This document shows positions 13,122 to 14,831 of a stretch of DNA of 40,973 bases, piece after piece; the first letter of the stretch is position 1; every line of letters starts with the position of its first letter. Position numbers and translations under genes: made by a program. Origin of the DNA: Isosphaeraceae bacterium (GTDB taxonomy: Bacteria > Planctomycetota > Planctomycetia > Isosphaerales > Isosphaeraceae). The stretch spans positions 1 to 40,973 of the forward strand of contig JANXSX010000171.1 in the NCBI GenBank assembly GCA_025356475.1, given 5' to 3'. The notes below the pieces were generated by a model. The model was not told where the DNA came from, searched no databases, and saw nothing but the letters and a program-made list of their open reading frames with translations.

Positions 13122-14243
13122 TCAAAGGCCCAACTCATCAAGAAGGTGCTTCAGGTGGCCTTCGATGATTCGGGCGGTGCGCTGATAATTCTCGCGGTCG
13201 GTGCCGATGGGATCATCAAGATCACCGCCGCTTGGGTCGAGTAGCCTCACACGGTCGGAGACATCTGGGATCTGATCGTAGAGGGCGTCGAGGTGTTCAC
13301 TCGTCATTGCGATGATGAAATCGGCTTGGCGAACGAGTTCGGGGCTAGCCGGACGACTTGCGTGATGCTGAAGTGAACCGCCACGTGATTTGACGACTTC
13401 AACCGCGTGTGAAGCCGCAGGCATGCCCTGCATGGCGCTTACGCCTGCGGATACGATCACATATCCGTTGTCTTCGACCGCTTCGAGTTTGCAACCGACC
13501 CGCTGAGCGATCATCGCCTTGCAAATCGCCTCAGCCATAGGACTCCGGCAAGTGTTGCCTGTGCAGATGAAGAGAACAATCTTGCCTGCCATTTGAGTGA
13601 TCTTCCTTGCGCTCACAACCCCGGTACGGACGATCGAACATCTATCGGCATTCACCTCCACAACAGTTGACATGCCTCCCAAATCGGTTGGGCCATCGTC
13701 GAGCATCATGTTCAGGCCTGGTATTTCACCAAGAGCCAAGGCGGTGGTTGCCGTACCTCGTTGAAGCTCGTCCAAGACTAATGGGCCAGGTAGGAGCCGC
13801 TGAATTTCGCGGACCAGTGGGTCTCGACAACACCTCAGTGCAATCGAGTCGGAGGGAGCAACGAGGGCCCGGACTTCTGGAGGTAACCGGGTTGCCAAAC
13901 CTCGTTGCACGCCTCCACTCAGGATCAAGGTGACGGGACCTGGCCAAACTCGCGAGGCTAGCTTCCGAGCAGTTTCGCCGGCTTCCGGGACCCAATCGGG
14001 CAGCTCGACCGGTCCTCGGATGAACAGCGAAAGGGGCTTTCCCCATGCTCCAGGATGGATGGCCCTGAGACGTTCGACGGCAAGCGGCAAAAGCGCGCTG
14101 GCTGCGATCCCGTACGATGTCTCCGTCGGTAGTCCGACCAACCCGCCCTGGGCCAAACACGCTACCGCACGATGGACGACGTCGCGGGGGTCGTCGGCCC
14201 TCACCATTTCAATCCAATCGGGCGTGTCTGAGGGCTCGGTCAT
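13122..14243 (-). CDS. Fusion of degenerate Sua5/YrdC domain with arginine-phosphatase-like LMW-PTP domain
   Basis: This 373-aa protein has two domains. Residues about 15-215 resemble Sua5/TsaC/YrdC, which makes threonylcarbamoyl-AMP for tRNA t6A: GLPTETSYGIAASAL, KPLSLFI, WPGPVTLILSG, IALRC and STVVEV. However, the usual KxR before KPL is replaced by HPG and the SANxSG motif by LDELQRG, so canonical activity is doubtful. Residues about 220-373 are a low-molecular-weight phosphatase with an intact CTGNTCRSP loop and a DDPIG general-acid motif. The Thr in this loop matches the YwlE protein-arginine phosphatase type rather than the tyrosine type. B. subtilis ywlC and ywlE are near neighbours, so the fusion follows known gene proximity. 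The stop lies 16 bases from the convergent queC stop. Confidence 0.85.
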   Translation of the reverse strand: MTEPSDTPDWIEMVRADDPRDVVHRAVACLAQGGLVGLPTETSYGIAASALLPLAVERLRAIHPGAWGKPLSLFIRGPVELPDWVPEAGETARKLASRVWPGPVTLILSGGVQRGLATRLPPEVRALVAPSDSIALRCCRDPLVREIQRLLPGPLVLDELQRGTATTALALGEIPGLNMMLDDGPTDLGGMSTVVEVNADRCSIVRTGVVSARKITQMAGKIVLFICTGNTCRSPMAEAICKAMIAQRVGCKLEAVEDNGYVIVSAGVSAMQGMPAASHAVEVVKSRGGSLQHHASRPASPELVRQADFIIAMTSEHLDALYDQIPDVSDRVRLLDPSGGDLDDPIGTDRENYQRTARIIEGHLKHLLDELGL

Positions 14244-14335: not shown

Positions 14336-14629
14336 TCAAAGCAAGTAGGCGAGGCCTCGAACTTCATTTACAGATTTGTAGATATTGCGTACTTGTTGGG
14401 CACTTTGGACATGAACTTGGAGGGTGATCGCCACATGTCGACCGCCAGGCGTTGAGCGAACCTTATGATCGATGGAGCTCTCTGCCAGAAGCTCGGAAAC
14501 GACAGCCGCGAGTACGCGCTCGACAAAATCATCATCCGCAGAACCAATGACTTTGATTTGGTAGCTGCCCGGGAAGCTGTGACTTGACTCAAGCAAGTCG
14601 ATTGCCGTTTGTTCGTGATCCTGATTCAT
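14336..14629 (-). CDS. DUF493 (YbeD-like) protein
   Basis: This 97-aa ferredoxin-like fold protein contains the family pattern YQIKVIGSADDDFVERV and a late QVHVQSAQQVRNIYKSVNEV segment, ending in GLAYLL as DUF493 proteins commonly do. It is probably a small regulatory or ligand-binding protein; YbeD of E. coli has no firmly established function. The ATG at 14629 gives MNQDHEQTAIDLLES and the normal length. An upstream in-frame start at 14671 would add an unrelated tail. It is divergent from the DUF1549 gene, with an AT-rich stretch near 14783-14800 between them. Confidence 0.75.
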   Translation of the reverse strand: MNQDHEQTAIDLLESSHSFPGSYQIKVIGSADDDFVERVLAAVVSELLAESSIDHKVRSTPGGRHVAITLQVHVQSAQQVRNIYKSVNEVRGLAYLL

Positions 14630-14831
14630 GACAAGTCCGTCTTCTGGGGCGTGATGAAGATCATGACACAAGATTCTAGGAGACAGGGCGGGTCGAGCCT
14701 AGTCCATCGACGCAAGAGAAGCCGATCGAAGATCGGGGAAAGATCGTCGATCCTCGTTGACACCGATCCATTCGAGCCGATAGATTTAATAATCATCTTA
14801 CAGGCCATAGCGTCGCTGATGGGGCCACTCC

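Follow-up and report, generated by a model that had tools for sequence, protein, structure and literature searches.

Introduction

The YrdC domains of Sua5 and TsaC make threonylcarbamoyl-AMP (TC-AMP) for the t6A (N6-threonylcarbamoyladenosine) modification of tRNA, and roles have been assigned to the residues of their ATP-binding tetrad (motifs KxR and SxN) and threonine-binding triad (PMC10321239). Organisms with both Sua5 and TsaC are reported to be rare, and the combination unstable (PMC10321239). Among other YrdC proteins, YciO is reported to conserve the TsaC active-site residues (PMC12506659), and the YrdC domains of HypF and TobZ retain KxR and SxN and act with a Kae1-like domain (PMC9654439). 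For the low-molecular-weight protein tyrosine phosphatases (LMW-PTPs), to which YwlE belongs, a Thr at position PX5 of the P-loop is reported to steer selectivity toward phosphoarginine (PMC8001253). In Bacillus subtilis, TsaD is reported to be arginine-phosphorylated and has been proposed as a target of McsB and YwlE (PMC7546277). Here we describe a 373-residue protein in which domains of these two systems are joined, encoded in a 40,973-nucleotide stretch (the window) of contig JANXSX010000171.1 from an Isosphaeraceae bacterium (Planctomycetota; GCA_025356475.1). We have good confidence that this protein is best explained as a YwlE-type arginine phosphatase whose TsaC-type N-terminal half is catalytically dead.

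Results

Both domains lie in one frame, with Pfam matches to PF01300 at residues 30-208 (E 1.8e-22, 80 bits) and to PF01451 at residues 223-368 (E 1.4e-26). The fusion claimed in the initial annotation is thus real and not a chance arrangement, given that full-length relatives recur across nearly the whole family and most of the class; the open reading frame (13122-14243) had been placed exactly, and the strand, absent from that annotation, is minus. For the motifs, the genome's own Sua5 and Escherichia coli TsaC served as alignment guides. KxR is replaced by H63-P64-G65 and SxN, within LDELQRG, by E159-L160-Q161, which bears out the earlier reading of both sites. The more general claim that the nucleotide motifs are lost stands for the ATP-binding tetrad and needs correction for the threonine-binding triad, which is still present (T40, S192, and R206), so that loss in the window protein is limited to the tetrad. 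The Sua5_C domain is absent, and the protein scores 76 bits against TIGR00057, the curated TC-AMP synthase model, below the cut-off of 123.2; the one intact-motif fusion tested (L060) scores 148.9 bits, above it. No tetrad or triad residue is missing from the intact fused homologues, and a Thr (43 proteins) or Ser (5 proteins) precedes their SxN, which is TsaC-like, rather than Pro.

The source genome (5.9 Mb, 99.98% complete) encodes TsaD. The search for a second, canonical Sua5/TsaC that the initial annotation had proposed located one on contig 196 that carries KGR, SAN, and Sua5_C and scores 197 bits versus 81 for the window copy.

To place this pairing in a wider frame, motifs were read in 157 fused proteins of the class Planctomycetia. 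To score standalone Sua5, 128 genomes (129 listings, G225 being entered twice) were searched with PF01300 and second matches from homologue searches were added; HypF, which also bears a YrdC domain, was separated by its long frame, and one 64%-complete genome was left unscored. All four motif residues are present in 48 of the 157 fusions. Where no standalone Sua5 was found, 39 of 40 genomes have kept the fused tetrad whole; where one is present, at least one motif residue is lost in 105 of 114 genomes and none in 9 (Fisher p 1.2e-26, kinship ignored). These 9 genomes, with an intact fusion and a standalone Sua5, and 5 others with a single-residue loss are candidate intermediates. Trees from which the motif columns were excluded show 18 to 19 changes of motif state. 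The most careful of them (108 rows) holds 9 independent pairs on supported branches, of which a mean of 6.8 agree with the association and 0 oppose it (sign test, median p 0.016, range 0.008-0.06); a two-domain tree gave 6 pairs and a tree of the phosphatase half 4, too few supported branches. Because the motifs are almost always intact without a standalone Sua5 and mostly lost with one, we conclude that the fused domain was ancestrally a t6A enzyme and was inactivated repeatedly, a direction of events that is read from present-day sequences and should be taken as probable.

A tree of Sua5 catalytic domains groups the 11 fused domains sampled from the class in a single clade (SH-like approximate likelihood ratio test, 97), and 22 standalone planctomycete Sua5s are scattered, some near Bacilli and some near Alphaproteobacteria. 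This suggests, with modest tree support, that standalone Sua5 was acquired repeatedly in planctomycetes.

The C-terminal half is YwlE-like and has the intact P-loop with its Thr that the initial annotation described (C227-TGNTCR-S234, Thr at PX5), residues 227-234 matching the LMW-PTP signature C(X)4CR(S/T). CTGNTCRS occurs in 155 of the 157 fusions and the PX5 Thr in every one, as does the DP of the loop that carries the general-acid Asp (D344-P345 in the window protein). This half is 36-37% identical to B. subtilis YwlE (4kk3/4kk4), which is among its top sequence matches; the best PDB sequence match is 4egs.

An McsB-type arginine kinase, also proposed as a search target, was found in an mcsA-mcsA-mcsB cluster. 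The source genome has one such kinase, at 452 bits versus the curated NCBIfam protein-arginine-kinase cut-off of 385, and the two McsA-like genes adjoining it both score under the McsA cut-off. The tandem mcsA-like pair lies immediately upstream of mcsB on contig 81 (L180:2141-4345). McsB was confirmed separately with NCBIfam because the PF00217 control matched 0 of 14 genomes, B. subtilis among them. An McsB-type kinase is present in 69 of 70 genomes of the class. Based on these features, the C-terminal half is a predicted protein-arginine phosphatase.

Both halves are confidently modelled. AlphaFold2 gave a predicted local distance difference test score (pLDDT) of 94.7 and a predicted template modelling score (pTM) of 0.89 for the window protein, and 95.5 and 0.90 for an intact homologue. 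The Pyrococcus abyssi Sua5 structure is matched at Z 25.7 by the window protein (root mean square deviation 2.1 over 204 residues) and at Z 29.8 by the intact homologue, and B. subtilis YwlE at Z 24.5-24.8 and 24.2-24.8, respectively. In close pairs of homologues with broken motifs, the ratio of nonsynonymous to synonymous substitution rates (dN/dS) for the YrdC half lies at 0.07-0.3 in most cases (full range 0.07-0.55), close to the value for the phosphatase half. The dN ratio of the two halves has a median of 1.50 in broken pairs and 1.21 in intact pairs. Losses in the broken homologues cluster around the active site, and the N-terminal helix, the WPGP sequence, and the core stay conserved, together with family-specific residues such as W84 and E80. 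Purifying selection and a retained predicted fold therefore indicate that the dead domain is kept for a purpose other than t6A synthesis.

Distribution and gene order

Each of the family's 45 genomes has a match to the fusion, and nearly all have full-length relatives; the order-level search gave genomes of the protein's own family only. Across the class, 293 of 297 sampled genomes have a match, part of these being to a standalone Sua5 or a lone phosphatase only. An intact fusion used as the query had matches at E 1e-20 in 228 of the 244 genomes sampled from the phylum, some of the hits not spanning both domains. Matches to both domains were found on named contigs of Pirellulaceae, Phycisphaerales, Omnitrophota, and a Gemmatimonadetes metagenome-assembled genome. 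The last (L216) holds a divergent fusion outside Planctomycetota that may be an ancient member, the result of a transfer, or a binning artefact. No relatives were found in viral contigs.

Downstream of the fusion gene lie rpiB and glyA in Omnitrophota and rpiB in several planctomycetes; a Bacillota contig has separate genes in the order sua5, ywlE, rpiB. We infer that the fusion arose by joining of adjacent genes, with loss of the Sua5_C domain.

Several class members (L113, L115, L116, L119-L121, L123, and L124) have as their best match a phosphatase frame that lacks the YrdC domain, and in two relatives LMW-PTP-like matches lie within other, longer frames of 523 (L050) and 440 (L051) residues. 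One further genome of the class (G275, 95% complete) yielded neither a YrdC-domain protein nor a match to the fusion phosphatase, and McsB is present; the joint absence could be explained by a gap in the assembly at a single fused gene.

The open literature was searched without finding a mention of the fusion, and searches on YwlE in planctomycetes and on a ywlC-ywlE operon returned nothing relevant. In fusing an inactive TsaC domain to a phosphatase, the protein combines known parts in a new way that none of the papers found describes.

The features of the gene are collected in Table 1. Upstream of it, on the same strand, is a DUF493/YbeD-like gene (window positions 14336-14671, minus).

Table 1. 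Coordinates of the fusion gene and its features within the window
Feature	Positions	Strand	Basis
YrdC-LMWPTP fusion gene (373 aa)	13122..14243	minus	Open reading frame; domains and orthologues
Predicted inactive YrdC/TsaC-type domain, residues 8-216	13596..14222	minus	PF01300; AlphaFold2 model; VIA-align to P. abyssi Sua5
Former KxR motif, now H63-P64-G65	14049..14057	minus	Alignment
Former SxN motif, now E159-L160-Q161	13761..13769	minus	Alignment
YwlE-type low-molecular-weight phosphatase domain, residues 221-373	13125..13583	minus	PF01451; B. subtilis YwlE match
Phosphatase P-loop CTGNTCRS, residues 227-234, Thr at PX5	13542..13565	minus	Sequence of 157 fusions
General-acid loop D344-P345	13209..13214	minus	DP in 157/157 fusions

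Discussion

We propose the following history. In an early ancestor of Planctomycetota, neighbouring sua5/tsaC and ywlE genes would have fused into one, and its bifunctional product would have made TC-AMP for t6A and removed phosphate from phosphoarginine. The presence of a separate Sua5, usually apparently acquired, would have freed the fused domain from t6A synthesis, and the freed domain would then have lost its ATP-binding KxR/SxN residues, many times independently. In the source organism, TC-AMP would be made by the standalone Sua5, and the C-terminal half would oppose McsB by stripping phosphate from the arginines that McsB marks. The dead domain would be retained as a folded partner, probably stabilising the phosphatase or docking it to its targets.

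The role of the YrdC half is where the alternatives differ most. The initial annotation suggested a domain repurposed to sense nucleotide or RNA. Its idea of a retained, noncatalytic role agrees with the dN/dS values, but the sensing part is unsupported because the former pocket residues drift freely in inactive homologues: the KxR/SxN positions have no replacement consensus, the commonest residue reaching 12-20%. A sensor of threonine, nucleotide, or RNA that controls the phosphatase allosterically would suit a half that is under purifying selection, modelled as folded together with the phosphatase, marked by conserved residues such as W84 and E80, and, in the window protein, still equipped with the threonine triad. 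However, no consistent new pocket was seen, and we consider such a sensor quite unlikely. The threonine-sensor version, raised by the surviving triad, was set aside, as only 24 of 104 broken homologues retain the whole triad. A YrdC half without remaining function, decaying toward loss, is unlikely: it would account for the lineages that have a phosphatase without a YrdC domain and for those broken lineages in which the YrdC half outpaces the phosphatase (dN/dS up to about 0.55), whereas most close pairs are constrained nearly as strongly as the phosphatase, all full-length family members have open frames, and strong conservation marks much of the core as well as WPGP and the N-terminal helix. 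Most likely, the dead YrdC domain serves the arginine phosphatase as a structural or docking partner. A more specific version, in which it ties the removal of phosphoarginine to the t6A machinery as a regulatory or docking subunit, for instance by keeping the phosphatase at TsaD, is distinctly doubtful; by analogy with B. subtilis, a t6A link through TsaD is conceivable.

Two further alternatives concern activity itself. That the YrdC half still makes TC-AMP by means of other residues is extremely improbable; the fold is retained, and one genome (G061) has a broken fused domain and no other Sua5 that could be found, but the window protein falls under the TIGR00057 cut-off, a canonical Sua5 is present in its genome, and all but one of the genomes lacking a detected standalone copy keep the tetrad. 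On the same grounds, including the way in which motif loss tracks the standalone Sua5, the window protein is very probably not the t6A enzyme, as first proposed, and is predicted to lack TC-AMP synthase activity. For the C-terminal half, the fold is common to LMW-PTPs and ArsC, and NCBIfam Wzb and ArsC models are listed among its matches, all below their cut-offs. Nevertheless, an ordinary phosphotyrosine phosphatase or arsenate reductase is very unlikely considering the invariant PX5 Thr, the standing of YwlE among the best matches, the near-universal McsB of the class, and the gene order sua5-ywlE-rpiB.

Several observations weigh against the explanation of a retained but catalytically dead domain. 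The genome G061 is listed at 99% completeness and has the broken motifs KRQ/AAA with no standalone Sua5 found; a missed Sua5 was sought, and none accounted for the exception. Two further exceptions without a detected Sua5 come from genomes that are 81-85% complete. In some lineages the phosphatase stands without the YrdC domain, which is therefore dispensable in places. Purifying selection may reflect a mere folding constraint on a two-domain protein, and, with limited branch support, the several acquisitions of standalone Sua5 are suggested and fall short of proof. As a separate observation, G061 (L125) has WPGP altered to LPGP and is the sole exception among genomes scored near complete.

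The fusion links in one polypeptide t6A tRNA modification and protein-arginine phosphorylation, usually studied apart, across a bacterial phylum. It also offers a natural experiment, with about 19 changes of state from an essential enzyme domain to a folded inactive partner, tracking a second copy. For annotation, such fusions are easily labelled Sua5/TsaC, and surveys filtered on KxR/SxN omit the inactive ones.

Among the nearest known systems, the window protein shares the YrdC fold with Sua5 and TsaC, and its intact fused homologues are TsaC-like in their motifs, but it is without KxR, SxN, and Sua5_C and is joined to a phosphatase. With YwlE/PtpB it has in common CTGNTCRS with the PX5 Thr, the DP loop, the fold (Z about 24.5), and a genomic McsB; it differs in adding a 215-residue N-terminal YrdC domain to what is a predicted arginine phosphatase. 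YciO is likewise a YrdC paralogue other than the cell's t6A enzyme, whereas the window protein lacks KxR/SxN and has a phosphatase joined to its YrdC domain. HypF and TobZ likewise hold YrdC within a larger fused enzyme. Finally, 4egs, a Thermoanaerobacter LMW-PTP filed as RpiB, has a molecule name that also points to a ywlE-rpiB association, and its solved chain, unlike the window protein, is without a YrdC domain.
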